Source of the DNA: Sulfitobacter aestuariivivens
GTDB taxonomy: Bacteria > Pseudomonadota > Alphaproteobacteria > Rhodobacterales > Rhodobacteraceae
NCBI RefSeq assembly: GCF_014763045.1
Contig: NZ_JACTAG010000001.1
Span: 1,674,001-1,738,000, forward strand
DNA length: 64,000 bases
Direction: 5' to 3'
Below, one piece after another: positions 1 to 15,089 of this stretch (within the stretch, counting starts at the first letter, position 1; the number at the start of each line of letters is the position of its first letter). The notes beneath the pieces were generated by a model. That model was not told the DNA's origin, ran no database searches, and was given only the letters and a program-made list of their open reading frames with translations. The position numbers and the translations under genes are program-made.

Positions 1-1623
1 CTGGCCACTGACGATTCCGGTCTGGCCAAGGCGGTGACCTCTCTGATCAGCAGCCTGCTGAGCACCGCACGCTCTGACATGACGGGCACCGCAATGCGCG
101 CGGCACGCTATGGGCAACTGGCGGTTGGTGCGCTGGTCCTTGAGGCCATCGGCGCGCTGCAGCGCATCCTTGATACCCTGCGCCCCGGCACCGACCCGCA
201 AGGCCCGGCCTCTTTGCTGGACCGCCTGTCTGCAACAATCCGCTATCAGTTCGAACTGCTGATCGCCTCAGACGACGAAGTGCGCCGGGTCTGGGAAATC
301 GTCGACACCGTGCTGGCGATCGTGCGTGGCGTACTGCGAGAAGGCGTGCTGTTTTCCCCGCAGGGCTTTGATCTGTTGGACAAATATGACTGGCGCGAAT
401 GGCTGTTGTCACATGGCGCGTCACCCGCGACCATCGACAGTGCATTCATCCGCGGCTCTTACGATCTGCTCTTCGCGTTCGAAGACGGCGATGTCGCGCG
501 ACCTCAGCTTGCGGCGGGTCAGGCACTACGCGGTGCGATGCGCATGTTCTTTACCTATCGTGGCGCGCTTTTCTGGAAGATGCAGGCAGGCATGGGCGAT
601 GTCGTTTTTGCCCCCGCCTATGAAGTGCTGGAAAAGCGCGGCGTGAAATTCGAATTCTTCCACCGCCTCGACCACGTGGCCCTCAGCGCCGACAAAAGCC
701 ACGTGGCACGGCTCGATATGTCCGTTCAGGCAGAGGTCAAGCGGGGTGCCGACTACAAGCCGCTTGTTCCGATCAAGGGCCTGCCGTGCTGGCCCAGCTT
801 GCCCCTTTATGACCAACTCAAGGACGGCGCGAAGCTGAAGAAGGCAGGCTGGAACCCCGAACATGGCGCGGACGGTGACCGGGCGGTGAACCGCAAAAAG
901 CTCAAAGTCGGCAAGGATTTCGACTTTGCCGTGCTGGCCGTGGGCTACGGCGCCGTGCCGGACCTCTGCAAGGAACTGATCGCGGTTGATCCCGCGTGGC
1001 AGCGCATGACCCAAAGCGTCAAGACCGTCGCCACACAGGCCTTCCAGGTCTGGATGGACGACACGGTCGAAGATCTGGGTTGGGGCCAGCCCCCGATCAA
1101 CATATCCGGCTATGTCGAACCCTTTGATACCTGGGCCGACATGCGTCAGCTGATCGCCGTTGAAGACTGGAAAACCGACCCCAAGGCGATCGCCTATTTC
1201 TGCTCTGTCCTGCCCGATACCATGACGGGCAAAGACGCCCATGCCCACGTGCGCCAGAATGCGGTGACCTTCCTCAACCGGGATGTCGCGCACTTCTGGC
1301 CGCAGGCGGTGGATGAGAAGGGCTTTCGCTGGGACCTGCTGTCGGGGGGCAAGGGCAAAGGTGAGGCGCGCTTTGACAGCCAGTTCTGGACCGCGAACAC
1401 ATCGCCCACCGAACGCTACGTGCTGTCTCTGCCCGGCACGCTGGAGCACCGCGTCTCGCCGCTTTACAATCGGTTCGACAATTTCACAATTGCAGGTGAC
1501 TGGACAGGATGCGGGCATCAGGCCGGCTGTGTCGAGGCCGCCGTGATGTCCGGTTTGCTGGCCGCAAGCGCGCTTTCGGGCGCACCAAACCTTGGCCATA
1601 TCGTAGGGTATGATCACCCATGA
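1..1623 (+). CDS. FAD-dependent oxidoreductase of the phytoene desaturase / amine oxidase superfamily (5' end outside window)
   Basis: The frame is open from base 1, so the true start and the N-terminal dinucleotide-binding loop lie upstream; at least 540 residues are present. The C-terminal motif TIAGDWTGCGHQAGCVEAAV followed by MSG is the FAD-contacting signature of the carotenoid desaturase, squalene-associated and monoamine oxidase group. An internal motif GMGDVVFAPAYEVLEKRGV is also typical of flavoproteins in this group. The family oxidises or desaturates isoprenoid or amine substrates. The stop overlaps the next start (ATGA), and a polyprenyl synthase lies two genes on, so an isoprenoid substrate is plausible. 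That substrate is inference; the flavoprotein superfamily is well supported. Confidence 0.8.
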   Translation: MATDDSGLAKAVTSLISSLLSTARSDMTGTAMRAARYGQLAVGALVLEAIGALQRILDTLRPGTDPQGPASLLDRLSATIRYQFELLIASDDEVRRVWEIVDTVLAIVRGVLREGVLFSPQGFDLLDKYDWREWLLSHGASPATIDSAFIRGSYDLLFAFEDGDVARPQLAAGQALRGAMRMFFTYRGALFWKMQAGMGDVVFAPAYEVLEKRGVKFEFFHRLDHVALSADKSHVARLDMSVQAEVKRGADYKPLVPIKGLPCWPSLPLYDQLKDGAKLKKAGWNPEHGADGDRAVNRKKLKVGKDFDFAVLAVGYGAVPDLCKELIAVDPAWQRMTQSVKTVATQAFQVWMDDTVEDLGWGQPPINISGYVEPFDTWADMRQLIAVEDWKTDPKAIAYFCSVLPDTMTGKDAHAHVRQNAVTFLNRDVAHFWPQAVDEKGFRWDLLSGGKGKGEARFDSQFWTANTSPTERYVLSLPGTLEHRVSPLYNRFDNFTIAGDWTGCGHQAGCVEAAVMSGLLAASALSGAPNLGHIVGYDHP

Positions 1624-2366
1624 AAAAACCAGCAAATACCGCTGATGCCCCTGCCCGCCTGCGACGCCCCGAACCTGAGCGAACCGAACCAAATCGCGGG
1701 ATACTCGGGGTATTTGGTCAGTCTAGCTGGGGCGCACCGCCACAAGGCAGCCATCCGCTGGGCTTTGACGAAGACACAGGCACCCCGGTTGAGCCGACCG
1801 GCCATGGGTTTCTTGACGACAGCGTTCAGGAAGCCTCCGAACTGGTGGATGCGCATATCCGACAGGGCCTCAAGGAAAGTGCAGGGGCCGACGAAAGCCT
1901 TCTGGGGCGGATGGCGGCCCTCTACGGCAGCGCGCAGGCCAATGATCTGACGGCACTGGCCACGCAATTCACCCGCGTCTACGCCGACATGGCCACCCAG
2001 TGGATCGATATCGCCGGCAGCATCCGGGATCAGCTTGGTAATCTGCGCGGGGCAACGGCCAGCGCCCCGGCGGCGAGCACGGGCATCGCGTCCCCCTCAA
2101 TGGTCCTCCGCGCGTCAAAGCCAGTGGAGACCCGGGTCGACATGTTTCGCGCAGCAGGCAGCCTCAGCGCGCAACCGCTGACATCCGAGGACGCCAATCA
2201 GGACCTTCGCATCACAACCGTCAGCGTCGAGAACGGACAGCTGCGCATCACAATTCCCGCCGACCAACCTGCTGGCACCTATCACGGGCTGCTTGTGGAA
2301 AAGGGCGCAGGCCCGGCCGGAACCGTCACCGTGCGGGTGTTTGAGACATCGGAGGACGGATCGTGA
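1620..2366 (+). CDS. Unrecognised 248-residue protein coupled to oxidoreductase and polyprenyl synthase
   Basis: I do not recognise a family. The first 60 residues are rich in Pro, Arg and Glu and look disordered. Residues about 65-140 look helical and amphipathic (for example GRMAALYGSAQANDLTALA). A low-complexity Ala/Ser stretch follows, and the last 50 residues look beta-rich (LRITTVSVENGQLRITIPAD). No signal peptide or membrane segment is visible. The start overlaps the upstream stop (ATGA) and the stop overlaps the downstream GTG start (GTGA), so translation is coupled on both sides. It may be a scaffold or accessory subunit for its enzyme neighbours, but no function is claimed. Confidence 0.75.
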   Translation: MKKPANTADAPARLRRPEPERTEPNRGILGVFGQSSWGAPPQGSHPLGFDEDTGTPVEPTGHGFLDDSVQEASELVDAHIRQGLKESAGADESLLGRMAALYGSAQANDLTALATQFTRVYADMATQWIDIAGSIRDQLGNLRGATASAPAASTGIASPSMVLRASKPVETRVDMFRAAGSLSAQPLTSEDANQDLRITTVSVENGQLRITIPADQPAGTYHGLLVEKGAGPAGTVTVRVFETSEDGS

Positions 2367-3403
2367 ATATCAACAGCATCGATACTGTCACGCCCGTGCT
2401 GGACGAATATGGCGCGCTGACCCGCAAGGCCATGGCAGAATACCTGCCCAAACGCGAACCGCTGGATTATCTCTACGCCCCGCTGGCCGATTACCCCACG
2501 CGTGGTGGCAAGATGATGCGCCCGTCGCTGTGCATCGCGACCGCCTCTGCCTTTGGCACACCGCCTAAAGAGGCTGCGAAGGCCGCCGCCGCCATCGAAA
2601 TGCTGCACAACGCCCTGCTGATCCATGATGATATCGAGGATGAAAGCGATGAACGGCGCGGCCAGCAGACCCTGCACAAGCTGCACGGCACGCCCATTGC
2701 GCTGAATGCGGGCGACGCACTTGCGATGATGAGCATCAAACCAATGCTCGACAAGGCCAAGGAACTGGGACCGCATCTGGCGATGCACATCCTCAGCGAC
2801 TGGGAGCGCATGGCGCGCGAATCCGCCGAAGGTCAAGCGATGGAACTGGGCTGGCGCGCCAATCCGGCCAAGGTGGTGACACGCAATGATTATCTGGAAA
2901 TGGTCCTGAAAAAGACCTGCTGGCTTGCCGCGATCTTTCCCTGCCGCATCGGCGCGACGCTTGGCACCTCAAACAAGGGGCTAATTGCACCCGACGCCTT
3001 TATCCGCTTTGGCTTTTTCTTCGGGGCTGCGTTTCAGATCCACGACGATGTGCTGAACCTCAAGGGCGACAAGGTTTATGGCAAGGAAAGCTGCGGCGAT
3101 CTTTGGGAGGCCAAGCGTACGCTGATGCTGATTGACGTGGCCGAACGGCTGAAGGGTGACGACAAGAAACGCTATGACGCCTTCATGATGCAATCGCGCG
3201 ACGACCGCTCAGAGGCTGACGTCGCTTGGCTGCTGGATGCCATGAATGAGGTCGGCGCGATTGACCGGGCCTTTCAGTACTCGCAAAGCCTTGCCAGTGC
3301 CGCGATCCACGAATTCTCGCGTGCGTTCAAAGACATACCAGATACGCGCGACACGGTTTTTATTCGCGACCTGATCACCTGGACCTTCCGGCGGGATCAT
3401 TGA
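2363..3403 (+). CDS. Polyprenyl diphosphate synthase (class I isoprenyl synthase)
   Basis: Condenses isopentenyl diphosphate onto an allylic diphosphate to build a linear prenyl chain. Both Asp-rich metal sites are visible: the first, HDDIEDESDERRG, spans residues about 88-100, and the second, FQIHDDVLN, lies near residue 228 with GKE close behind. The substrate-binding GGKMMRP motif is at 48-54. Length (346) is slightly above the usual 290-330. The residues just before the first motif are Ala and Leu rather than aromatic, which in this family tends to permit longer products (C20 or more); that is inference. The GTG start overlaps the upstream stop. It is distinct from the housekeeping farnesyl synthase context, since no dxs or xseB lies nearby. 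Confidence 0.88.
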   Translation: MNINSIDTVTPVLDEYGALTRKAMAEYLPKREPLDYLYAPLADYPTRGGKMMRPSLCIATASAFGTPPKEAAKAAAAIEMLHNALLIHDDIEDESDERRGQQTLHKLHGTPIALNAGDALAMMSIKPMLDKAKELGPHLAMHILSDWERMARESAEGQAMELGWRANPAKVVTRNDYLEMVLKKTCWLAAIFPCRIGATLGTSNKGLIAPDAFIRFGFFFGAAFQIHDDVLNLKGDKVYGKESCGDLWEAKRTLMLIDVAERLKGDDKKRYDAFMMQSRDDRSEADVAWLLDAMNEVGAIDRAFQYSQSLASAAIHEFSRAFKDIPDTRDTVFIRDLITWTFRRDH

Positions 3404-3430
3404 ATTTGAGCGTCTCAGCCAAAGCAATGA

Positions 3431-4459
3431 CGCAGGTCGCTTCGCCTCGACGCGGAGTGCAGGATCATCGCTAGGAAAGAACAGAAACGTGCCCTTGTAC
3501 TGGGCGGTACCGGGCATATCGGGTCTGCGATTGCACGAAAACTGGCCACGGACGGATGGACCGTCACCGCCGCCGGGCGCAGCGCGGAGCCCCGTCCCAA
3601 TCTGGAAGGCACGAAGGTCAAAATCGTCGGTGGCGATGATCATCAACCCGCTGCTGTTGCGGGCTGGATTGCCGACGCAGATCTGGTCGTTGATGCCGCA
3701 ACGCCCTACCCGCTGTGGCTGCATGACCGAGACCGGGTGCGCATCGTGGCAAACGCCGTCACGCGCGCCCGACATCTGACTGCGATGACGGCCAGGTCAG
3801 GCGCGGCATTCGTGCATATCTCTTCTTTCACGACCCTACCCCGCCCCAAAGGGCCGATTGCGCAACTCTCACAGGGTATCCTTCAGGGACTGCACAGCTA
3901 TTTCGACCTCAAGGCCAAGGTCGAAGCGGCGGTGCGCGGCGCGCTGCGCGATGGCCTGCGGGGATGCGTGGTCAATCCAGCGACGTGCTTTGGCCCCTAT
4001 GACCTTAAGCCGATGGAACATGCCTTTATCCCGATGCTGCTGGCCGGCAAGGTTGGCGGGTTGGTGCGCCATGATCTGAACGTTGTGGACGTGCGCGATG
4101 TGGCCGCAGTGGTCAGCGCGGCCTGCGCGCAAGATTTCCCCACATCCCAGATCCCGGTATTTGGTCACACAGTCTCGCTCCCTGAGCTCGCGACCCGTAT
4201 CTGCCAGCTGGGTGGGGTGAACCCGCCGCGCCTGCAGGTGCCATCCCTAATGGGATTGGCCAGTCTCTACTGGGTTGAAACAGCCTATGCTGTGGCGGGG
4301 CGGAAGTCGCCCTGGCCCAGCCTGCCGATGATGCTGGTGCGGGCCAGCTATGCTGCGGCACCCAGCGCGGCCCAGATCAGCCTGGCGGGTCATCCCCGAC
4401 CACTGGCCGACACCCTGCAAGACGCGGTTGCGTGGTATCGCAAGATCAACCGCGTCTGA
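3431..4459 (+). CDS. NAD-dependent epimerase/dehydratase-like protein with no canonical start codon
   Basis: The frame opens after a TGA at 3428 and runs to 4459. It encodes a Rossmann N-terminus (RALVLGGTGHIGSAIARKLA from 3488) typical of extended short-chain dehydrogenases, followed by VDAATPYPLW and FVHISSF, then CFGPYDLKPME in the usual position of the catalytic region. No ATG, GTG or TTG occurs in frame before the GTG at 3737, and starting there would delete the nucleotide-binding loop. A short frame starting TTG at 3406 or ATG at 3427 ends with TAG at 3472, just where the epimerase frame takes over. Either a rare start (ATC at 3464 or 3467) or a frameshift is needed. The coordinates given mark the open frame, not a proven start. 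Confidence 0.6.
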   Translation, partial: RRSLRLDAECRIIARKEQKRALVLGGTGHIGSAIARKLATDGWTVTAAGRSAEPRPNLEGTKVKIVGGDDHQPAAVAGWIADADLVVDAATPYPLWLHDRDRVRIVANAVTRARHLTAMTARSGAAFVHISSFTTLPRPKGPIAQLSQGILQGLHSYFDLKAKVEAAVRGALRDGLRGCVVNPATCFGPYDLKPMEHAFIPMLLAGKVGGLVRHDLNVVDVRDVAAVVSAACAQDFPTSQIPVFGHTVSLPELATRICQLGGVNPPRLQVPSLMGLASLYWVETAYAVAGRKSPWPSLPMMLVRASYAAAPSAAQISLAGHPRPLADTLQDAVAWYRKINRV

Positions 4460-4461
4460 GC

Positions 4462-7400
4462 CTACGATGCCTCGTCCGCGACCTCTTTCGTCATGATCCT
4501 CTTGAGGCGTGCGCGCATTTCCTCGTGCGGCAGGCCGATCGAGCCGTTGGTCACAATAGTGCCGTCAGGTTCCGCTCGTTCAATCCCCTGCATATCCCGC
4601 ATGTTGTATTCGGCGCGTTCGATATAGGTGTAAAAATGGTGGTGAAAATGTTGGTCGAAAGAGTCGTCTTTCATCAGCTTTGTCATCTTTTCACCGATTT
4701 CTCTCAGTGAAGTGACCAGTGCCGCCCAATCAGCGGATGGCACCAGCTTGTCTGCGGAACCTTGACCATTTTCCATCAATTCGTACATGGACCGACGCAT
4801 GTTCTCTTCGCTGACACGGAATGCTGCGGGCAAATGCGCATCGACAAATTCTCTTACGATCTGTTCTGATGCACGCGCCAGACCATCGAAATCTTCGTCG
4901 TTTTCGATCCTCTCGATGACCGCGCGTGTGCTGTCATATGCGGCTTGCTTCTTTTCGTCGTCCAGCATCCCGAACAGACCTTCGGTCAGCGTCGTGACAA
5001 AACCGTCGATGGCCGTTCTTCCGTCGGCACCAGCCGAACTGGCGGGAACCAAGTTATCCGATGTAAGCGCTGCCGGATAGATAAGCGCCAGGATCTGGAC
5101 AGCCGAGTTTAGCTCATACTTAAAGGCCGTCGCCTCGCTTTCCCGCTGGGCCATTGCGCTGAGGTACTGCCGTGTAGTCTGAGGCCAGTAAATGCCTGCG
5201 CGCTCGTGTTCCGGAAAAAGATCAAGTGCGATGCGCTTGGGCACAGATGTCGCGGGCACGCAGAAATCGGGCCGCCCAAATCGCGGCAACTTGGTGCCCT
5301 TGACCACGCCCCAGCCCCGGGACAATACCTTGTCCAGCACGGTTGCGGGGCTGAACCGTTCCATGTTTTCGGCCATGTCTTCCTGTTTGAAACCGGTTTC
5401 CTTATCCTGCATCTGGGCATTCCAGGCGGCGATATCGATGCCCTTGCCGGGATCGAGTTCGTTCAACAGTTTGGGATCACACACCACCGACACGATATCC
5501 TTGAAGTCACGCCGCTTGGCCTTGATATCCTTGGCCTGACCGGTCTGGACGCGGCCCTCAAGAAACGTCTCTTCGAGGTATTTGCGCTTTACCTCCTTGA
5601 ACCGCTTTTCCATGGTGGCGCCGGTCTTGGGATTGGTGGATTCATAGGCCAGCGAAATGTGGGTGCTCCCTTTGACGGCTCTGACCATGTCAGCCACCTC
5701 GCCGCGCGGAATATTGCGCCAGCCGAAAATCTCCTCGGTGATGTCGACGCGGCTCCATTTCTTTTCGTTAATACGCTCGAACAGGGTCACACCGGCCCCG
5801 CGCCGCAGGTCGGCATTCAACGAAAACGGGCGCACGGCCTCGTACACTTTGATCAGGCGATCCGGGCCGGGATAGCTGAACTTGGGCTTCAGGCCCAAAA
5901 TCTTGCTGATCGGCTGTGTCGGATAATCAGTAATGCAGACATGTAGCGGCGCGTCGATCTCTCGGAAGTCGCCGAGCTTCAGAATATGGTGCCGCCGCAG
6001 CACAAGGCCCTGATAGCAGGCATTCTGCGTTTCACTGCTATGGCGGAATTGCTTGAGCGAGAACTGATTCAATGGCAGCATGCCGCCCAGAATCTTAAGC
6101 GCAAAACCCTGCGCCGCACAGATCGCCTGCTTTTGATCCGCTGCTGCCGCGCGGGGATCGACCTGCAAGTCGGAACGGCAATCCTCTTCAATCTTCTCTT
6201 GCAGGTCGTCGGCCAGTACACCAACCCAGCGGTTGACGGCCTCATCTTCTGTCTCCTGCACCGCTGCGTGATGCGGATGGTGCGTCGAGACATCAACAAT
6301 CGTGCGATCCACAGACTGCGCGCCCACGCCAAGTGCCGGCAGCACCGGCGCCTTTAGGGTCAGGATCTCGTGCTGGTCCTGCTCGCGCGTGTAGTCCCGG
6401 CTCAGCCATTCATTTTCGCTGGCGCGAATTGTGGACCCAAGGCTCGGCACGCCAAACACCTCATTGGCGGTGATCGCGGTGCCAACATCATCAACAAACG
6501 TGAACGCGTTCACGAAACCGGTCGTGACCAGCTTTTCCTTGCCGCGTTTGCGGCGCATCTTGGCGTCCTCGTCTTTCTTGCTCGCGCTGTAGTCGAGCGG
6601 ATAATCTTCATCCTTGAACCACTCGTAGCATTTGACCGGGACCAGCAGGCTCAGCTCACGCGCGCGCCGCTTTGCAATCGATGTCGTCTCCGAATTCATC
6701 TGCTTGAAGTCGCTGATCACAAGATAGACAAAATCCCCCCAGGCCTCGAACCGCAGCGCGCCTTTGAAGCGCATATATTCGCCCACGAACTTTTGCAGCG
6801 TTTCCGCATCTGCCTTGAGCGGCAGCACCCTGACCGAAGCATCCGGCACAGAGAACGATCCCCCGATCGCCTCGCTTGCACCGCGCGCCGTGTTGAACGC
6901 GTTCATCGCGCGAATGTAGTCAAACCCCTGCCCATCATCGAGCTCTTTGGGTGGATCATACGCCTGGCTATCTTGCGCGGCACTCTCAGGATCAGCGCCG
7001 GTGGAACGCGGTTGCAGCTCGTCTTCGCCAAAGCTGAAGGTCTTTTCATCCTGCGCACGCTGGGCCTTGCTGGCGGCCTTGATTTTGGTCAGCGTCTCAC
7101 CTTCCTGCCATTCGCCCGACCGTCCGCGCCAGATCAACGTATCGGCCAACCCATACATCATGTCCACGCGCATCCACAGCGGGGCCACAGGTGACAGGGT
7201 CGACACCGTCGTGCCATTCGCCTCGCGCGTCTCCGCGACCTCCAGACCAAGGCTTTCCACGATGGGCAGCCCGGCCAGATGATGGATGTCAATCCTGAAA
7301 CCGCCGTCGATTTGGCCCAGCATCATGTTCTGCGGCCCAAGAAATCCGCCTTCTTTCAACGATGTAACTGGCATCTGCGCGGCAGTCAGGGCTTGATAAC

Positions 7401-8307
7401 ACGTGCCACTCGGATTGGCCGCATCCCGGAATTGCTTGAAGTTTATCGTGTTCGCATACATCCGCGGATAGAGCGACCACAGCGCATCCTTGATTCCTGG
7501 CAGCCATTCCTTTGTATCGCGCCACTTGCCCAGGTTTTCCGGCGACAGCTGATTGCGCAGCGTGCTCAGATCCATCAGATTCGGCAGCATTGCAGAGCCG
7601 GTGATCCGGTCGCTGGCCATGCCCAGAAAGGTTCTGGTCAGATCCGCACCCAGCCGGGTCAACCCGGCGGCGGCGTTCGACATCTGCGACAGCGGCTTGA
7701 CGATCGCATCAAGGCTCGGCGGCACATCCATGAGCCCCGCCGTACGATGCTGAAAGACACTCAGCAAGGGGCGGTAGCTGTTGGTTTCCCCTGCAAAAGC
7801 CTCGCTGGCCCCTTTGGTTGAAACCTGAAATACCCGCCGCGCCCCGTGCGGATCACGCACCCATTCACTGACTGACGGATCAAGCCGCGCCAGCAACTTG
7901 GGCCAGCCGTAAACTTCGCGACCCGTGCTCATCGACAGTTCATTGTCTACAAAGATGAAAGGCGATGAGAACGCCCAATCATGAAAGTGCAGCCCGTCCT
8001 CTTCGGCATTCAGCCACCGCAGCGGCACGCCAAAGGCGACCTCGCGCTGCGAAATCCACCCCATATTGGCCGCCTCGATCGACATGCGGCCATAATCAAG
8101 GATCACCAGATAGACAAATGGCATGAAGGGCTGGAACTGAATCTTGCCCGGCGCCTGATTAAGATAATTGCGGCAGAAGTTCTCCAAAGTGGGCAGACTG
8201 GCCCGCAACGGAAAGACAGACATCGTAACATCACTAAAAGCAAAAGGTGGGGCCATCTGCAGCGAACTTGCTGCACCCCGCGCTGTGTTGAATGGAACAC
8301 CTTGCAT
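4462..8307 (-). CDS. Giant protein with two tandem acetoacetate-decarboxylase-like units
   Basis: About 1281 residues. The start at 8307 was chosen because a G-run sits 9 bases upstream and because the second unit begins with the same phrase: residues 1-11 read MQGVPFNTARG, and near 468 the sequence reads MNAFNTARGA. Unit 1 carries GREVYGWPK at 129-137, the acetoacetate decarboxylase superfamily motif whose Lys forms the Schiff base. Unit 2 has NEVFGVPSL in the same place, so the Lys is lost. Both units later share a block FKQFRD/FKQFRH, a CYQ, and PI-x(4)-LGL. The last 500-600 residues match nothing I know. It has no signal peptide and diverges from the ABC-like gene. The function is unknown. 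Confidence 0.75.
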   Translation of the reverse strand: MQGVPFNTARGAASSLQMAPPFAFSDVTMSVFPLRASLPTLENFCRNYLNQAPGKIQFQPFMPFVYLVILDYGRMSIEAANMGWISQREVAFGVPLRWLNAEEDGLHFHDWAFSSPFIFVDNELSMSTGREVYGWPKLLARLDPSVSEWVRDPHGARRVFQVSTKGASEAFAGETNSYRPLLSVFQHRTAGLMDVPPSLDAIVKPLSQMSNAAAGLTRLGADLTRTFLGMASDRITGSAMLPNLMDLSTLRNQLSPENLGKWRDTKEWLPGIKDALWSLYPRMYANTINFKQFRDAANPSGTCYQALTAAQMPVTSLKEGGFLGPQNMMLGQIDGGFRIDIHHLAGLPIVESLGLEVAETREANGTTVSTLSPVAPLWMRVDMMYGLADTLIWRGRSGEWQEGETLTKIKAASKAQRAQDEKTFSFGEDELQPRSTGADPESAAQDSQAYDPPKELDDGQGFDYIRAMNAFNTARGASEAIGGSFSVPDASVRVLPLKADAETLQKFVGEYMRFKGALRFEAWGDFVYLVISDFKQMNSETTSIAKRRARELSLLVPVKCYEWFKDEDYPLDYSASKKDEDAKMRRKRGKEKLVTTGFVNAFTFVDDVGTAITANEVFGVPSLGSTIRASENEWLSRDYTREQDQHEILTLKAPVLPALGVGAQSVDRTIVDVSTHHPHHAAVQETEDEAVNRWVGVLADDLQEKIEEDCRSDLQVDPRAAAADQKQAICAAQGFALKILGGMLPLNQFSLKQFRHSSETQNACYQGLVLRRHHILKLGDFREIDAPLHVCITDYPTQPISKILGLKPKFSYPGPDRLIKVYEAVRPFSLNADLRRGAGVTLFERINEKKWSRVDITEEIFGWRNIPRGEVADMVRAVKGSTHISLAYESTNPKTGATMEKRFKEVKRKYLEETFLEGRVQTGQAKDIKAKRRDFKDIVSVVCDPKLLNELDPGKGIDIAAWNAQMQDKETGFKQEDMAENMERFSPATVLDKVLSRGWGVVKGTKLPRFGRPDFCVPATSVPKRIALDLFPEHERAGIYWPQTTRQYLSAMAQRESEATAFKYELNSAVQILALIYPAALTSDNLVPASSAGADGRTAIDGFVTTLTEGLFGMLDDEKKQAAYDSTRAVIERIENDEDFDGLARASEQIVREFVDAHLPAAFRVSEENMRRSMYELMENGQGSADKLVPSADWAALVTSLREIGEKMTKLMKDDSFDQHFHHHFYTYIERAEYNMRDMQGIERAEPDGTIVTNGSIGLPHEEMRARLKRIMTKEVADEAS

Positions 8308-8427
8308 TTGGTGACCCCCCCCAAGGAATAAATTTCTTCTATTGGGAAACCTTAGGCACTGTGCCATTTTCGAACAAGCGGGAATGCCAGTTAAAGCCAA
8401 TGAAACAAAGGCTCAACTGCAGGTAGT

Positions 8428-11400
8428 ATGCCCGTAAGTAACGATTTGCGGGGTCGAAATAGACACCCCGTCAGCGGTGATACTATCAGACGCATAAGAC
8501 GGAACGGCACCATCGATACTTCACTTTTTAAATTCATCTGGACCTATTCCAAACGCCAGCAAATCCTCCTGCTCTTGGTCACGATGCTGCTGTTCCCGTT
8601 TCTCTACCTGACACTGGAACTGCCAAAACGCATCATCAACGATGCGATCGGCGCAGCCCAAAACGTTGTCGTGGTCTTTGGCGTCCCGCTTAGCCAGACA
8701 ACGTTCCTGTGGCTGCTTTGCGGATTGTTCCTGTTGTCGGTTCTGGGGCACGGACTGCTTAAGGTGCGCATTAACACCATGAAGGGCGCCCTGTCCGAGC
8801 GGATGCTGCGGCGGTTCCGCTATCTGCTGGTGACCCGGCTTTTCAGGTTCCCCAAACCCTACTTCCAGCGCACCAGCCAGGCCGAGATCGTGTCGATGAT
8901 CACGTCCGAATCCGAACCGATGGGCGGCATGATGGGCGATGCAATTTCCCAGCCCGTGCTGCAGGCAGGTCAGATGGCGACGATCCTGATGTTCCTGTTT
9001 CTGCAAAGCTTCTGGTTCGGGTTGGCCGCGATCGCCCTCATTCCGCTGCAGGCGTGGCTTATCCCCATGCTACAAAGGCGGATAAACGTCCTGAACAAGG
9101 CGCGCATCGGCGAGGTGCGCAAGCTGGCCGCCGAAATCGGAGAGACCGCCGCAGGCACGCCCACACTGCGGACAAGTGGCGCGCATTCCTATCGCTCGGC
9201 CATGGTCACACATCGCCTGGGGCGTTTGTTCTTCATCCGGCTGGATATCTACCGCAAGAAATTCTTCATGAAGTTTCTCAACAACTTCATCACTCAGCTG
9301 ACACCGTTTTTCTTCTTTTCGGTGGGTGGGTATCTGGTCATCCGCGGCAACGTTTCTCTGGGGGCCCTGGTGGCGGCCCTTGCCGCCTACAAGGATCTCT
9401 CGGCACCTTGGAAAGAGCTGCTGACCTACTACACCAGCTTTCACGAAATGTCGCAGCGCTGGACACTGATCACCGACCGCTTCGCCCCGGCAGGGATGAT
9501 GGAAGATGGTCTTTTCGACGACCCTCCCGAAACAATCGGCCGGCTCACAGGGGACATCGTCTTTGACCGGGTCAGCGCCCGTGACGTGGACGGTATCCCA
9601 CTGGTAGAGAACCTGTCCTTCACGATCCCCGGCGGCGGCGTGGCCACCATCAGCTGCGTGACCCCCGAAGAACGGCAGGTGATTTCCGAGCTTCTCACCC
9701 GCGAGATAGTGCCCTCCGAGGGGCGCATCACCATCGGTGGGCGCGACCTGGCCAGCCTGCATCAGGCCGAGATCGGCACGCGAATCGGCTGGGCTGATTC
9801 GGCCCCCTACCTCTTTGCAGGCACCATCGACGACAACATGATGCTCGCGCTCAAGTCGATGGGTCGTGTTGGCGATACCGAATTGCCTGAACTGGCTATG
9901 GAAAGGCTTGAAGCCACCCGGTCGGGCAACAGTACGGTGTTGCTCGAAGACAACTGGATCGATCCTGCGCGGTTGGGGATGCAAAGTCTGAGTGACGTAC
10001 GCGCTTGGTGGCTCGACATCATTGAGGGCATGGGCGCAGATCGCGAACTGGTCCGCCGCGCGCTCGGCCTGCGGATCGCTGCGCAAGAGGCCCCTGAAGT
10101 GGCACAGCACCTTGTCGATCTACGCGATGAAGTGCGCGTGCGGCTGGATGGCGACGGTCTGCTCAGCACCATGCGCCCGTTTGAGCACGAAACCTACAAC
10201 AAGGCAGTCCCCCTGCTGGAAAACCTGCTCTTTGCGGCTCCATCAGAGCCTGTTACCCAGCGCGAGTTGGCCGAACACAACGGCTTTCTGCCGCTGCTTC
10301 GGGCGGTCGATCTGGTGGCCGAAATTGCCGAGGTGGCCCAAGCCGTCACTGACCTTTTGCACGATACTTTCGGCGCAGATGGCACCGATCACCCGCTGTT
10401 CCGGCGGCTGGGTATCGACCAGACAGACTTTGACGCAACCTTGCGCATCTCCAACCGCGCCAAGTCCGACGGCCTGAGCGGCGTCAGTGACGAGGACCTG
10501 GCCCTGCTGCTGGCCCTGCCCTGCCTGCTGGCACCTGATCAGGTCGGCTCTTTCGTGCCCCTGGCCCTGCAGGATCAGGTCGTTGCCGCCCGTCAGGCGG
10601 TGCCGCAGGACCCTGCCAAACGCCTGTCTGAGCTTTACCAGCAACTCGACCCGACCAGCTTTTCTGACGGTTTGTCGGTGGTGGAGAACATGCTGTTTGG
10701 TGTGGTCAATAAGGACGTCGGAAAACGCGTTGATCTTCTTTTCGAGACCATCGCCGCGATCCTGGACGAACAGGGGCTCAAGTCAGAAATCGCCACCCTC
10801 AGCCTGAGCGAGGAAAGCCTGCTGGGTGGCACAAATCTGTCGCCCCGGGTGCGCGAACGCGTTGCCTTTACCCGTGCCGCAATCAAACGCCCCGATGTGC
10901 TGGTGCTGGACAAGGCGCTGGCAAGCTACGAGGCAGAGACCCGCGCGGCAGCCGTGTCGCGCCTGCATCAGGCCCTGCCGGACGCAACGATCGTGTTGCT
11001 CGACAGCAGCTTTGACGAAACGCAGCAGTCTGACGTGTCGATCGAGATTGCACAGGGCCGCCTTGCGCATGAAGGCCGGGATAGTCCCGATCAGGGCAAG
11101 GAAACGACAAGCGGCAGCGCAACCGATCTGGCGACCAAACTTCAGGCCCTGCGACAGTCCGTCTTCTTTTCCGAGCTCGATCAAAAGCAACTTCGCCTGC
11201 TGGCCTTCTCTGCGAAATGGTTCAACATCCCGCATGGCGAGGTCATCTTCAGCCAGGGCGAAGATTCCGCAAGCGGCGTCTATCTGATCCAGAAAGGTGA
11301 GGCCGATTTCATCGCACCGGGCAAGGACGGTAAAGAGGACGTTCTGATCCGCATCGCAGGTCCCGGCAGCCTTGTTGGCGAACTGGGTCTCATACTGGGC

Positions 11401-11568
11401 GTGCCCCGGACGCTGACGATGACCTCGCGCACCGACCTATCGGGCCTTGTGATCGGCGGCGAGGAATTCCTCTCTGTCATGCAACACGATGCGGGCACGA
11501 CATTTAAGCTGATGCAGCTGATCGCCGGTTACTTATCCAAGTCCGCCGCTGAACAGACACAAAAGTAG
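8428..11568 (+). CDS. ABC-exporter-like membrane protein with decayed ATPase domain and C-terminal cyclic-nucleotide-binding domain
   Basis: 1046 residues. Residues about 40-335 form an exporter-type membrane domain with hydrophobic segments near 46-68, 93-113, 180-215 and 290-325. An ABC ATPase fold follows from about 375, but each motif is lost: SCVTPEERQ replaces the Walker A loop, the Q-loop reads GWADSAPYLFAGTI without Gln, the signature reads NLSPRVRERV, Walker B reads LVLDKA with Lys for Glu near 829, and the switch His is absent. About 330 residues separate the Q-loop from the signature, against roughly 55 normally. Residues about 905-1035 form a cNMP-binding domain (GEVIFSQGEDSASGVYLI, GSLVGELGLILGVPRT). 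It probably cannot hydrolyse ATP by itself. Confidence 0.8.
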   Translation: MPVSNDLRGRNRHPVSGDTIRRIRRNGTIDTSLFKFIWTYSKRQQILLLLVTMLLFPFLYLTLELPKRIINDAIGAAQNVVVVFGVPLSQTTFLWLLCGLFLLSVLGHGLLKVRINTMKGALSERMLRRFRYLLVTRLFRFPKPYFQRTSQAEIVSMITSESEPMGGMMGDAISQPVLQAGQMATILMFLFLQSFWFGLAAIALIPLQAWLIPMLQRRINVLNKARIGEVRKLAAEIGETAAGTPTLRTSGAHSYRSAMVTHRLGRLFFIRLDIYRKKFFMKFLNNFITQLTPFFFFSVGGYLVIRGNVSLGALVAALAAYKDLSAPWKELLTYYTSFHEMSQRWTLITDRFAPAGMMEDGLFDDPPETIGRLTGDIVFDRVSARDVDGIPLVENLSFTIPGGGVATISCVTPEERQVISELLTREIVPSEGRITIGGRDLASLHQAEIGTRIGWADSAPYLFAGTIDDNMMLALKSMGRVGDTELPELAMERLEATRSGNSTVLLEDNWIDPARLGMQSLSDVRAWWLDIIEGMGADRELVRRALGLRIAAQEAPEVAQHLVDLRDEVRVRLDGDGLLSTMRPFEHETYNKAVPLLENLLFAAPSEPVTQRELAEHNGFLPLLRAVDLVAEIAEVAQAVTDLLHDTFGADGTDHPLFRRLGIDQTDFDATLRISNRAKSDGLSGVSDEDLALLLALPCLLAPDQVGSFVPLALQDQVVAARQAVPQDPAKRLSELYQQLDPTSFSDGLSVVENMLFGVVNKDVGKRVDLLFETIAAILDEQGLKSEIATLSLSEESLLGGTNLSPRVRERVAFTRAAIKRPDVLVLDKALASYEAETRAAAVSRLHQALPDATIVLLDSSFDETQQSDVSIEIAQGRLAHEGRDSPDQGKETTSGSATDLATKLQALRQSVFFSELDQKQLRLLAFSAKWFNIPHGEVIFSQGEDSASGVYLIQKGEADFIAPGKDGKEDVLIRIAGPGSLVGELGLILGVPRTLTMTSRTDLSGLVIGGEEFLSVMQHDAGTTFKLMQLIAGYLSKSAAEQTQK

Positions 11569-11574
11569 GTCCGC

Positions 11575-12117
11575 TCAGGACGCCCGTTCAAGAAAGGCGT
11601 TCACCTCGCGCACGGCAGTTCCCTGATTGATCCTGCGGAAGGTCAGATCAAGACCGCCTTCAACGAGGGTCCGGTGATATTCCTGGATCTCATAGGCGCC
11701 TTCTTCGGCGATGAACATCGAATAGAGCGACAGCGTATCCCCTTCGAGACGGGCCCAGACAAAGGGCTCCCCCTTGAGCGGATCAAGCGGGATCTGTTTG
11801 CCGAACATGTTGGTCTGCATGGCTGAGCCATAAATGGACTCGCGCTGGCTTGGCGTGAAGTTGATCGTATAGGTCTTTTCCTTTGAGCGGCCATCACTCT
11901 TGTAGGTCACCGAAGTCCAGCTGACGCTGAACCCCTTGTCCTGAGCTTCGATGGTTGTGCTCATGTCCCGCAGCCGTGCTTCGCCTGCCACAATCTCTTC
12001 AGCACTGCCCTCATACCGGCCAAAGAACTGATCAATCTCGGCGGCGACGGCGCTCAACGGTAGGGCCAGAAATACAAGGCCAAGGACGAAACGACGCGTA
12101 AATGAATTATGTGTCAT
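11575..12117 (-). CDS. Small exported protein of unknown function
   Basis: 180 residues with a clear signal peptide: a basic start, RRFVLGLVFLALPLSAVAA, and likely cleavage after AVAA at about residue 25. The mature part is beta-rich and begins EIDQFFGRYEGSAEE, resembling small periplasmic proteins that are also unassigned. It converges on the ABC-like gene, with only 6 bases between the two stops. I cannot say whether it belongs functionally to that cluster. The 137 bases upstream of its start, before the next operon, hold no gene I recognise. Confidence 0.75.
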   Translation of the reverse strand: MTHNSFTRRFVLGLVFLALPLSAVAAEIDQFFGRYEGSAEEIVAGEARLRDMSTTIEAQDKGFSVSWTSVTYKSDGRSKEKTYTINFTPSQRESIYGSAMQTNMFGKQIPLDPLKGEPFVWARLEGDTLSLYSMFIAEEGAYEIQEYHRTLVEGGLDLTFRRINQGTAVREVNAFLERAS

Positions 12118-12254
12118 AGGGTTAAGATAATCCTCCTGCCTGATAATACCACAATAACCGCCACTTGTGATGCTTAATGTGTGCCTGCGCGCTTCGGGAC
12201 CGATGCCGCTTGAGGCGCTACCGCATGATGTTGCGGCCCGACGCGCGGCGCGGG

Positions 12255-13109
12255 CTATTTTCTGGCGTTCGGAAAGAAAAGCGACGCCAATCCAAGGATC
12301 GCCGAAATCACGATCAGCAGCAGCGACACGGCATTCAAAACCGGGGTGGACCCCTGTTTGAGCTTGTCGAACATGGTGATCGTCAAAGGTGAATCCGATC
12401 CCACCAGCATCAACGTGGTGTTGAAGTTCTCAAAGCTCATCAAAATAGACACGATGGCCGAGGCCACGATCGCGGGCATCAGGAACGGCAGCGTGATCTG
12501 CCGGATCGCACCCCATTGACTTGCCCCCAGATTGAGGGCGGCCTCTTCAAGGCTGGGGTCAAACTTTTGCAACCGCGCAGAAATGACAAGCGTGGCAAAG
12601 GTCGTGATAAACGAAAATTGACCGAGAATGACAAGGATCAACCCCGGCCGCAGCCCATCAAACCAAAGACCCGTGGCATCTTCCAGCGTGTTGGCAATAG
12701 CGCTGGAGAAGACAAGGATCGAGATGCCCAGGATCACCCCCGGAATGATCAGCGGCAAAAGCATCAGCATATACAGCAGTGCCTTTCCCCTGAACGTATG
12801 GCGCACGAACAAAAAGGCATTGCAGGTCCCCACCGCAACCGCTAGCGCGGATACCCAAAGGGCCACAAACGTCGAGGTCCCGATGGCGCGCAGGATAGAC
12901 CGCTCGTGAAAGACACCGATGTAGGGCGCCTCAGTGCCGAAAAACCACGCTAGCGTGAACCCTTCCCACGGCGGCGACGGGAAGACACTGTTGTTGAACG
13001 CGAATACGCACACCACGCTCAGCGGTAGCGCAAGGTAGATGAAAAAGGCGGTCACATAGGCGCGGTAACACCATTTGGCAAACGCTGGCTGCGGGACAGT
13101 GGGGATCAT
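12255..13109 (-). CDS. potC: Polyamine-type ABC transporter permease (PotC-like)
   Basis: 284 residues with about six membrane segments, starting with AFFIYLALPLSVVCVFAFNN. The EAALNLGASQWGAIRQITLP loop near residues 180-200 is the EAA motif that docks on the ATPase. This is the second permease of an importer of the spermidine/putrescine family, which brings a cationic or small organic solute across the inner membrane. Its start overlaps the upstream permease stop by 4 bases (ATGA), and it is the last gene of the four-gene operon. The exact substrate cannot be read from sequence. Confidence 0.88.
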   Translation of the reverse strand: MIPTVPQPAFAKWCYRAYVTAFFIYLALPLSVVCVFAFNNSVFPSPPWEGFTLAWFFGTEAPYIGVFHERSILRAIGTSTFVALWVSALAVAVGTCNAFLFVRHTFRGKALLYMLMLLPLIIPGVILGISILVFSSAIANTLEDATGLWFDGLRPGLILVILGQFSFITTFATLVISARLQKFDPSLEEAALNLGASQWGAIRQITLPFLMPAIVASAIVSILMSFENFNTTLMLVGSDSPLTITMFDKLKQGSTPVLNAVSLLLIVISAILGLASLFFPNARK

Positions 13110-13972
13110 GCGCGCCCCATCGTATCAGACAGCGATTGACGGGACAGCTTGAGCCCCAGAAACACAATCCCCGATGACAGCGCCAGCAGCAGAAACCCGA
13201 GGGCTGAGCCAAGCTCCCAGTTAAAGCGGGTGATGAACTGCGTATAGATCATCCCCGTGAACCAAAGACTGTCCTTGCCGCCCAGCAGGATCGGGGTCAG
13301 GTAGTTACCGAGCGACAGCATGAACACGACGATGCCCCCCGATACGATACCCGGCATCGCATGGGGAATGACGATCTCGCGCATGATAGAGGTGCTGGTG
13401 CCACCCAGATCATAGCCCGCTTCGATCAGGCTGTTGTCCAGACTGTCGAGGGTCGTCACCAGCGGCACCACCATGAACAGGATCGACGTGTACACCAGCC
13501 CAACCATAATCGCCGCATCGTTGTACAAAAGCTCAACCGGCCCACTTATCAGCCCAAGGTTCTGCAGTGCGGTCGATATGACTCCGGTTTCCCGCAGCAG
13601 GATCATCCAGCCAAAGGTGCGCACCAGCTCAGAAACCCAGAACGGGATCATGCACATCAAAAAAAGCGTGGTTTTCGTGCGACCCCGGGTCAGCTTGGCA
13701 ATGTAATAGGCAATCGGAAAGCCTAGGATCAGCGTCAGCGCCGTGGCAAGGATCGACATGATCGCGGTCCGCGCGAACGTGCGCCAATACAGCGGCTCAC
13801 CAAAGAACGTGGCGTAGTTGCCAAACCCGGTCTCGAATTCACGTGGGCCGACCTTTTCGCTTATCGACACGATGAATAGGCCGATATGCGGCAGGATGAT
13901 CAGCACAATCAGCCACAGCAGGATCGGCGCCAGCAAAAGATAGAACCCGAGCCTGGATGTGTCAGAGCCCAT
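13106..13972 (-). CDS. potB: Polyamine-type ABC transporter permease (PotB-like)
   Basis: 288 residues and six hydrophobic segments, the first being LLLAPILLWLIVLIILPHIG. The EAA loop reads EAGYDLGGTSTSIMREIVIP near residues 195-215. It pairs with the PotC-like permease to form the membrane channel of the importer. It lies 4 bases after the ATPase gene stop and overlaps the next permease, so the four genes are transcribed and translated together. Within the spermidine/putrescine family the precise substrate is uncertain. Confidence 0.88.
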   Translation of the reverse strand: MGSDTSRLGFYLLLAPILLWLIVLIILPHIGLFIVSISEKVGPREFETGFGNYATFFGEPLYWRTFARTAIMSILATALTLILGFPIAYYIAKLTRGRTKTTLFLMCMIPFWVSELVRTFGWMILLRETGVISTALQNLGLISGPVELLYNDAAIMVGLVYTSILFMVVPLVTTLDSLDNSLIEAGYDLGGTSTSIMREIVIPHAMPGIVSGGIVVFMLSLGNYLTPILLGGKDSLWFTGMIYTQFITRFNWELGSALGFLLLALSSGIVFLGLKLSRQSLSDTMGRA

Positions 13973-13976
13973 CGGC

Positions 13977-15089
13977 TCAGACCTTGCCCGCTGGATAACA
14001 GCGCGCCTGTTGCGGGTCCCAGCAGGTGAACACCGTGTCGCCCGCGCGCAGATGTGCGTGTGTCCCTGTCTGCGGCACGGCCACGTTCATCAAGGTGCCG
14101 CCCGCATCCCGCACAATGACCGAACTGTTCGCACCATTGAACAAAACCGCATTCACCGTACCGGGGCTGACGTTCTGCCCTGCACCGACGTCCTCTTGCG
14201 ATGTAGACAACGTGATGGATTCGGGCCGCAGGAAGACCTGCGCGCCCTGCCCTTCGGACAGATCCGCCCCGCCCGCCTCGACATGCATCTGTGTGCCTCT
14301 TTCCGAGGTCAGCGTCAGCCTGCTGCCATTCACGCCGGTCACTCTGGCCTCGATCCGGTTGGCATCGCCGACGAACCCGGCAACAAAGGCGGTCGCCGGC
14401 TTTTGATACACCTCATCCGGCGGCCCAATCTGCTCGAACCGCCCCTTATTCATCACCGCGATGTTGTCGCTCATCACCAGCGCCTCTGACTGGTCATGCG
14501 TGATGTAAACAAAGGTTGTGTTAAACGCTGCCTGCAGCGACTTCAGCTCAACCTTCATGTGTTCGCGCAGTTTCAGATCAAGCGCGCCCAGCGGTTCATC
14601 CAACAGCAGGACATCCGGTTCCAGCACCATGCAGCGCGCGATGGCGACCCGCTGTTTCTGCCCGCCCGACAGCTGATCGATCCGGCGCGCCGACACCCCC
14701 GGCAGGCCCACGCGCTCCAGCACCGCCTCGACACGGCGGGCAATCTCACCGCGTGCCACGCCCCTTTGGCGCAGGCCGAAGCCCACGTTGTCACCAATGT
14801 TCATCGTCGGAAACAGCGCCAGATGCTGAAACACCATCGACACCGGGCGTTTGTTGGGGGGCACACCGATCATTGATCTGCCCTTGATCAGCAGATCGCC
14901 ACTGGTCGGCGACTGAAACCCCGCAATCATGCGCAAAAGCGTTGTTTTCCCGCACCCTGACGGTCCAAGAATGGAAAAGAACGACCCCTGCGGCACATCA
15001 AAGCTGACATGATCCACAGCGCGAAAGTCATCGAAATCCTTGGTCAGATCACGGCAGATCAGATCAGGGTTGGTGTCGGTCACAGGCAC
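13977..15089 (-). CDS. potA: Polyamine-type ABC transporter ATP-binding protein (PotA/PotG-like)
   Basis: 370 residues. Intact ATPase motifs: Walker A GPSGCGKTTLLR near 43-54, Q-loop VFQHLALFPTMN, signature QLSGGQKQRVAIAR, Walker B VLLLDEPLGALDLKLRE, and a switch His in YITHDQSEA. The C-terminal third is the TOBE-type beta domain (VFLRPESITL) found in importers for polyamines, iron and sulfate. It powers the PotB/PotC channel from the cytoplasmic side. All residues needed for hydrolysis are present, in contrast to the decayed ABC protein at 8428-11568. Confidence 0.9.
   Translation of the reverse strand: MPVTDTNPDLICRDLTKDFDDFRAVDHVSFDVPQGSFFSILGPSGCGKTTLLRMIAGFQSPTSGDLLIKGRSMIGVPPNKRPVSMVFQHLALFPTMNIGDNVGFGLRQRGVARGEIARRVEAVLERVGLPGVSARRIDQLSGGQKQRVAIARCMVLEPDVLLLDEPLGALDLKLREHMKVELKSLQAAFNTTFVYITHDQSEALVMSDNIAVMNKGRFEQIGPPDEVYQKPATAFVAGFVGDANRIEARVTGVNGSRLTLTSERGTQMHVEAGGADLSEGQGAQVFLRPESITLSTSQEDVGAGQNVSPGTVNAVLFNGANSSVIVRDAGGTLMNVAVPQTGTHAHLRAGDTVFTCWDPQQARCYPAGKV

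Follow-up and report, generated by a model that had tools for sequence, protein, structure and literature searches.

At the start of a 64-kb window of Sulfitobacter aestuariivivens DNA (G000:C1:1674001-1738000, the whole stretch analysed here, out of a 4.19-Mb genome) lie five neighbouring genes: FLA, a flavoprotein; SML, a 248-aa protein; PPS, a trans-prenyl diphosphate synthase; EPI, an epimerase-like oxidoreductase; and a giant gene related to acetoacetate decarboxylase (ADC). These five form a conserved, patchily distributed cluster. We put a probability of roughly 0.68 on the reading, drawn from sequence comparison, that it is a horizontally spread, pathway-level cluster, centred on FLA and ADC, for making or remodelling a lipid-like molecule of isoprenoid origin. 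A sequence-only reading of the window had proposed that seven genes act together on a prenyl-derived lipid or pigment-like molecule; the isoprenoid part of that proposal is partly supported by linkage, the seven-gene unit is not.

FLA relatives were collected by a pattern scan of a one-genome-per-species collection with a two-sequence FLA alignment as query; the 47 loci obtained are a lower bound, because the scan required exact short peptide patterns. Partner genes were tallied by six-frame searches with profiles that were themselves built from these 47 loci, PPS being counted within 10 kb of FLA; a gene missing from a locus cut by a contig end was scored as lacking, and L036, nearly a copy of L008, is included in both totals (36 and 47). 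PPS was found at 36/47 loci, against a chance expectation of about 0.02 per 20 kb (four prenyl synthases per 4.19 Mb), and the linkage is far above chance. These 36 loci carry SML (35), EPI (31), a cyclase/AAA/TPR gene (30) and a match to the giant (22; partial in L046, split in L029); all five window families are present at 17 loci. The cluster occurs in Pseudomonadota, Myxococcota, Gemmatimonadota, Acidobacteriota and Binatota, so that the association of a prenyl synthase with a desaturase-like flavoprotein, first noticed in the window alone, holds in relatives of several phyla.

The order FLA, SML, PPS is kept at 31/47 loci under a loose adjacency rule. The order of the window is repeated in L006, L007, L008, L010, L036 and, among Gemmatimonadota, L024, with a regulator between PPS and EPI in all of these except L006; outside Roseobacteraceae gene order is variable. 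Pairwise distances of FLA and PPS are correlated (r=0.79, 35 loci; 0/1000 permutations as high). On the FLA tree, many of whose taxon labels are metagenome bins, 5 changes fall to Pseudomonadota and 6 to Myxococcota, at least 3 of each being forced by well supported branches, a pattern that suggests horizontal spread. An accidental neighbourhood, assembled when horizontal transfer brought together genes from separate pathways, could also show a patchy distribution and variable order; the recurrence of the same partners across phyla, the order kept at most loci, the overlapping genes, the correlated distances and the FLA-ADC fusions described below all speak otherwise. The linkage counts contradict such an accident, which we hold to be scarcely credible.

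Patchiness is most evident in the giant, which was matched in 2/244 sampled Rhodobacterales genomes, the second being G194, Heliomarina baculiformis (locus L008); none of the 11 other genomes of the window strain's genus listed in that sample gave a match. FLA relatives above 200 bits were found in 5/398 sampled Pseudomonadota genomes and in 23/195 genomes of the phylum of Archangium, 8 of the latter above 1000 bits. Eleven plasmids carry FLA relatives, every one below 60% identity; a plasmid-borne giant was sought among 72,556 plasmids and not matched. A phage origin was rejected: PHROG returned matches only to broad families (ABC, epimerase/reductase) and a single further one at E=0.095; a pattern scan of viral contigs with a single PPS protein found no relatives. 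The cluster does not stand out in GC content (0.58-0.62 in its 2-kb blocks; 0.56-0.64 elsewhere in the window). The examined stretches of G002, G036 and G844 showed no clean empty site, the flanking genes being rearranged in G002. One Rhizobiaceae bin (L050) has kept the giant (11570-14851) together with just a 97-aa frame of FLA (9998-10291), and is likely to be a decaying cluster, judging from these frames.

The giant matched PF06314 at 8.9e-6 (25.8 bits, under the cut-off of 29.8). An AF2 fold model was made for the 1193-aa Heliomarina relative, the window giant itself not being the modelled chain (mean pLDDT 67.8, pTM 0.70); a Foldseek search with it returned 15 PDB matches at E<=0.001, ADC-fold without exception, and as modelled the giant is two ADC-fold copies in one chain. 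The alignment used 21 of 25 giant sequences (L029, split; L036, near copy; L046, short; and L047 were omitted). The lysine of a GWPK motif in copy 1 is invariant in 21/21, and copy 2 has no lysine at the corresponding position in 21/21. By HMMER the GWPK lysine falls opposite the first lysine of PKK in 4zbo/6eej, a solved ADC-family aldolase-dehydratase; in 4zbo we take this residue to be the Schiff-base lysine of the ADC family. The superfamily also includes the aldolase-dehydratase (title of 6eej), and the giant is a candidate decarboxylase.

FLA and ADC also occur fused in nature: nine loci have both domains within a single open frame, with FLA leading in L103, L109, L114, L121, L122, L123, L124 and L127, and ADC first in L113. 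Four of the nine came from 13 loci sampling FLA neighbourhoods and five from a second set of seven, of which five had been picked because the frame was long or contained an ADC match; the nine are examples and not a frequency, because they were partly sought out. The Pfam ADC model scored over its cut-off in two of four fusions tested and under it in the other two. FLA-type genes on plasmids of Catenovulum and Azospirillum adjoin genes annotated as 'acetoacetate decarboxylase family protein'; the Azospirillum gene also adjoins an 'outer membrane protein transport protein', a FadL-type name, which hints at a lipid substrate. That mobilizable Azospirillum plasmid (L134, 7917-17863) carries FLA-type, outer-membrane transport, ADC-family, NAD(P)-binding and AAA ATPase genes, adjoined by genes for ethanolamine ammonia-lyase and phage tails; its NAD(P)-binding protein is probably the second FLA place of the record. 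On a Qingshengfaniella plasmid (L132, 5917-12631), as at L103 (9516-16405), a long FLA gene is followed by an adenylate/guanylate cyclase and a Crp/Fnr-type regulator; L103 is a fusion, and the length of the L132 gene fits one. At two myxobacterial loci (L102, L107) FLA-type genes stand as tandem pairs, and a very long member of the cyclase/AAA/TPR regulator family adjoins them.

At the three Bacteroidota loci that the scan returned, FLA is accompanied by a Pyr4-type transmembrane terpene cyclase and by a single-domain relative of ADC, an isoprenoid context without PPS. Membership of the window genes in a Pyr4-type meroterpenoid cluster was rejected: PF25129 had no match in the window genome, and 3/16 genomes searched have one. 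The statement that no cyclase is visible stood, none having been found among the seven proteins scanned.

PPS matched PF00348 at 174 bits (cut-off 27) and falls within the class I trans-prenyl diphosphate synthases. Its aspartate-rich motifs (D89, D90 and D93; D228 and D229) are invariant in 18/18 aligned sequences, and its nearest solved structure is the Thermus geranylgeranyl diphosphate (GGPP) synthase 1wmw (262 bits). Residue A84, five before the first aspartate-rich motif, is a near-invariant small residue; by the chain-length rule, this fits a product of C20 or longer. SML had no match in Pfam, NCBIfam or PHROG. Its AF2 model (mean pLDDT 75.4, pTM 0.42), a helical hairpin with a beta domain, matched no PDB fold at E<=0.001, and the best profile match among PDB sequences was E=0.0012 across 44 positions.

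In sequence FLA resembles, weakly, HpnE and the carotenoid desaturases. The portion in the window matched PF01593 at 2.7e-6; the full-length protein matched the HpnE model at 4.4e-19 (69.1 bits; equivalog cut-off 283.05), the zeta-carotene desaturase model at 1e-11, far under its cut-off, and the carotenoid desaturase equivalog at 44.5 bits (cut-off 622). A GGG near the N-terminus and a GDW near the C-terminus are invariant in 24 aligned sequences, and matches to the oleate-hydratase family (MCRA), all weak, were found in 3/4 FLA-ADC fusion relatives. EPI, whose frame is open over 3431-4456, matched HpnA at 6.1e-35 (120.6 bits; cut-off 367.65), SdmB at 1.6e-17 and OleD at 3.7e-6, the last two also under cut-off. 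No ATG, GTG or TTG precedes its nucleotide-binding motif (window 3404-3500); this could reflect decay, a frameshift or a rare start codon (AUU/AUC). The same lack is seen in Sulfitobacter mediterraneus DSM 12244 (L010:17110-17280).

With HpnE as the best curated model for FLA, and HpnA and SdmB for EPI, the genes might belong to a variant hopanoid/sterol-type pathway, with FLA as a hydroxysqualene dehydroxylase of HpnE type and EPI as an HpnA/SdmB-like enzyme, acting on triterpenoids made elsewhere. We consider this improbable: both scores are far under the cut-offs (69/283 bits for FLA, 121/368 for EPI), PPS resembles GGPP synthases, and the seven proteins, to which this search was confined, include no squalene/phytoene synthase or squalene-hopene cyclase. 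Membership in hpn clusters proper was rejected on the HpnA score and the missing squalene-hopene cyclase, and membership in crt clusters on the desaturase score and the missing phytoene synthase, both absences again among the seven proteins. Scores against HpnE, HpnA, the carotenoid desaturase and the encapsulin cargo fall well short of the respective cut-offs, and for the known clusters tested, hpn and crt among them, the earlier remark of no match to a described cluster was supported. No description of it was found among the papers listed by searches of open-access literature, subscription papers and natural-product cluster databases lying largely outside that search.

PPS also matched the polyprenyl-transferase cargo model of Family 2B encapsulins (cNMP-binding shells) at 5e-47, and encapsulin operons with epimerases and dehydrogenases are described in passages of PMC8346489, where those with polyprenyl transferases are almost exclusively actinobacterial. 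The set could on this ground be an encapsulin terpenoid operon with PPS as its cargo; the cargo score, however, is 160.8 (cut-off 450), below that of a methanogen IdsA model (170), and no shell gene over cut-off is present in the window genome. Its shell matches are weak, at about 30 bits or below, and similar ones turn up in 9/14 control genomes. Shell-bearing genomes made up 5/12 of the cluster-bearing genomes searched, myxobacterial without exception, and in Archangium (G247) and Minicystis (G248), each one very large contig, the shell lies more than 1 Mb from the cluster. Those five genomes (L073-L076) have at least two Family 2B shell genes each over cut-off. For the window genome this explanation is close to refuted, and in general we regard it as very improbable.

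A recurrent further partner is the regulator, a cyclase or kinase/AAA/TPR gene at 30/36 PPS-bearing and 34/47 FLA loci, which is absent from the window gene set. The Heliomarina regulator scored 446 bits against the closest NCBIfam model, TOMM kinase/cyclase (cut-off 706). FLA, ADC and this regulator could have begun as a sensing or defence module to which PPS, SML and EPI were later added: besides the 34/47 loci, the regulator accompanies FLA at 7/12 further PPS-less loci (L102, L103, L104, L107, L108, L110, L114), the cyclase domain of the family is similar to Pycsar cyclases, and a myxobacterial version has a kinase similar to defence kinases. Against such an origin, PADLOC gave no match at 0.001 for FLA, SML, PPS, EPI, the giant ADC or the fusion L103, the regulator family is common and its closest curated model, itself under cut-off, is the TOMM one, and the window set does without a regulator; we think a defence module distinctly unlikely. 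The sequence-only reading had missed this recurrent regulator, as well as the two-copy ADC architecture (lysine-bearing and lysine-less) and the FLA-ADC fusions.

Several observations weigh against an isoprenoid cluster centred on FLA and ADC. Eleven of the 36 PPS-bearing loci have no ADC-like gene in reach and 14/36 have no giant. Twelve of the 14 giant-less genomes were searched whole and 8 gave no match; in G831 (L009) the giant lies on contigs other than that of the cluster, G824 (L021) yielded a relative at 270 bits, and the remaining two have matches solely inside FLA-ADC fusion proteins, from which it follows that a mostly myxobacterial lineage manages without the giant. Conversely, 7/11 PPS-less loci carry an ADC-like gene, of which two, L030 and L050, resemble a contig-cut and a decayed copy of the same cluster. 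A Rufibacter (Bacteroidota) plasmid has FLA and a cyclase gene and no annotated terpene cyclase; within the 13-locus sample of FLA neighbourhoods, loci with no ADC-like match in reach include L102, L104, L106, L107, L108, L110 and L111. The regulator family is unspecific, with two near-full-length relatives elsewhere in the window genome; the likeness of FLA to known enzymes is weak, its best PDB match being phytoene desaturase at E=8e-4; and the irregular start of EPI in the window, as read from the sequence, might be that of a failing gene.

The individual steps of an isoprenoid pathway can be proposed by inference from the enzyme families. PPS would supply a prenyl diphosphate of about C20; FLA may act on the prenyl chain by desaturation, dehydroxylation or hydration; EPI would oxidise or reduce between hydroxyl and carbonyl; and the lysine of giant copy 1 could form a Schiff base with the carbonyl, followed by decarboxylation, cleavage or condensation. 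The lysine-less copy 2 may be a scaffold or lid, and SML might keep the enzymes together as a small scaffold or lipid-surface protein. In a beta-hydroxy acid version, for which we assume EPI to be related to SdmB and OleD, EPI would oxidise a beta-hydroxy acid and the giant would decarboxylate the product, by analogy with the removal of carbons from sterols; we rate this version as unlikely, if conceivable. A further proposal, slightly less doubtful and still more unlikely than not, is that FLA and ADC are a two-step machine, in which the flavin would make a carbonyl or unsaturation on a prenyl chain and the lysine would make or break the adjacent C-C bond, giving chain-shortened or rearranged isoprenoids of an undescribed class; copy 2 would be structural, SML a dedicated scaffold at the lipid surface and the cyclase/AAA protein a dedicated sensor. 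Many phyla would then have reused the pair on different substrates, whether alone, together with PPS or beside a Pyr4-type cyclase.

The features of the window concerned are collected in Table 1.

Table 1 Features at the start of the window, in window coordinates.
Feature	Position	Strand	Description
FLA	1..1623	+	C-terminal 540/709 residues of a FAD amine-oxidase-superfamily protein
SML	1620..2366	+	248 aa, no family match; predicted helical hairpin and C-terminal beta domain
PPS	2363..3403	+	trans-prenyl diphosphate synthase; three others in genome
EPI	3431..4459	+	epimerase/3beta-HSD-like oxidoreductase; canonical start codon absent at expected place
Giant ADC-like	4462..8400	-	1312-aa open reading frame; two ADC-fold copies (as modelled) and C-terminal region
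Invariant lysine codon (K168, 1312-aa frame)	7897..7899	-	GWPK, giant copy 1
Intergenic region, giant / divergent ABC gene	8308..8427	.	120 bases
Pseudo-ABC protein with C-terminal cNMP-binding domain	8428..11568	+	neighbour, outside cluster
180-aa protein	11575..12117	-	neighbour, outside cluster; no family match

The genes and coordinates first described for this stretch were borne out by open reading frame and family scans, and extension upstream showed that FLA continues 507 bases beyond window base 1, giving a full gene of 709 aa (L002:17494-19623). The genes further upstream we read as kynurenine and 3-hydroxyanthranilate genes. Four plus-strand genes had been called coupled; FLA and SML do overlap by 4 bases (1620-1623), as do SML and PPS (2363-2366), and the coupling of EPI is less certain because of its missing start codon. 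EPI and the giant are convergent. The start of the giant is likely, from the sequence, to be the ATG at 8307, for a protein of about 1281 aa, and with this start the 120-base region shared with the ABC gene agrees with the earlier account. No sigma-70-like match lies inside that region, the total of the promoter/terminator scan being near chance.

The two outer genes do not belong to the cluster. Matches to the ABC family occur in 70/244 Rhodobacterales genomes, compared with 2/244 for the giant, and the 180-aa gene has matches in 11/21 genomes of the genus (its own included, one weak); because of these distributions the seven-gene unit was rejected, and in relatives five families travel together, not seven. 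The label of a dead ABC protein was right as to motifs: the window protein lacks the Walker A P-loop, and lysine occupies the place of the expected Walker B glutamate. The P-loop is absent in 20/20 aligned homologues, with a different conserved stretch in its place, and the nucleotide-binding domain is interrupted by an insert of about 300 residues. It was this insert that was matched in the 70/244 genomes, often twice per genome (a few matches weak), with a second copy in the window genome. In G002, of the same genus and without a giant match, a 40% identical full-length ABC copy lies about 4.6 kb from a 3-hydroxyanthranilate dioxygenase gene, so the ABC gene is probably chromosomal background. 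The family (window 8428-11568; L054-L072, L128) is an ABC-exporter-like one of Rhodobacterales; it is possibly a sensor or scaffold and not a pump. The 180-aa protein is probably exported, to judge from its N-terminus.

The presence of the cluster in Roseobacters, myxobacteria, Gemmatimonadota, Acidobacteriota and Binatota, with no described product found in the searches made, points to unrecognised isoprenoid chemistry. If the proposed pathway is true, a Schiff-base step would be added to isoprenoid tailoring and such clusters would become recognisable to genome miners. The FLA-ADC fusions offer a small enzyme open to direct testing, and the double ADC protein, as modelled, a clear case of duplication in which one copy bears the lysine and the other does not.

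Among known systems, the Thermus/archaeal-type GGPP synthases (1wmw, 1wy0, 5jfq) are the best PDB matches of PPS and have both aspartate-rich motifs in common with it; PPS differs in its cluster setting. HpnE and the carotenoid desaturases, the best curated-model matches of FLA, share its FAD-binding N- and C-terminal motifs, but their models span 430-474 aa, compared with 709 aa for FLA, whose partner is ADC-like. The short-chain reductases HpnA, SdmB and OleD match EPI weakly and have different neighbours. TOMM kinase/cyclase regulators differ from the Heliomarina regulator, which has a SAM domain and no kinase. In the bacterial Pyr4-like terpene cyclase clusters (PMC13307353, in the main text of which the words Bacteroid and decarboxylase do not occur) the cyclase is of the family that adjoins FLA in Bacteroidota and is unmatched in the window genome. 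With the ADC superfamily (ADC, the aldolase-dehydratase 4zbo/6eej, MppR) the giant has the fold and the lysine position in common; it differs in its two copies per chain (roughly 800-1400 aa as called), in the lysine-less copy 2, in a usually present extra C-terminal region, in the replacement, in the window giant, of the second PKK lysine, and in its isoprenoid context.

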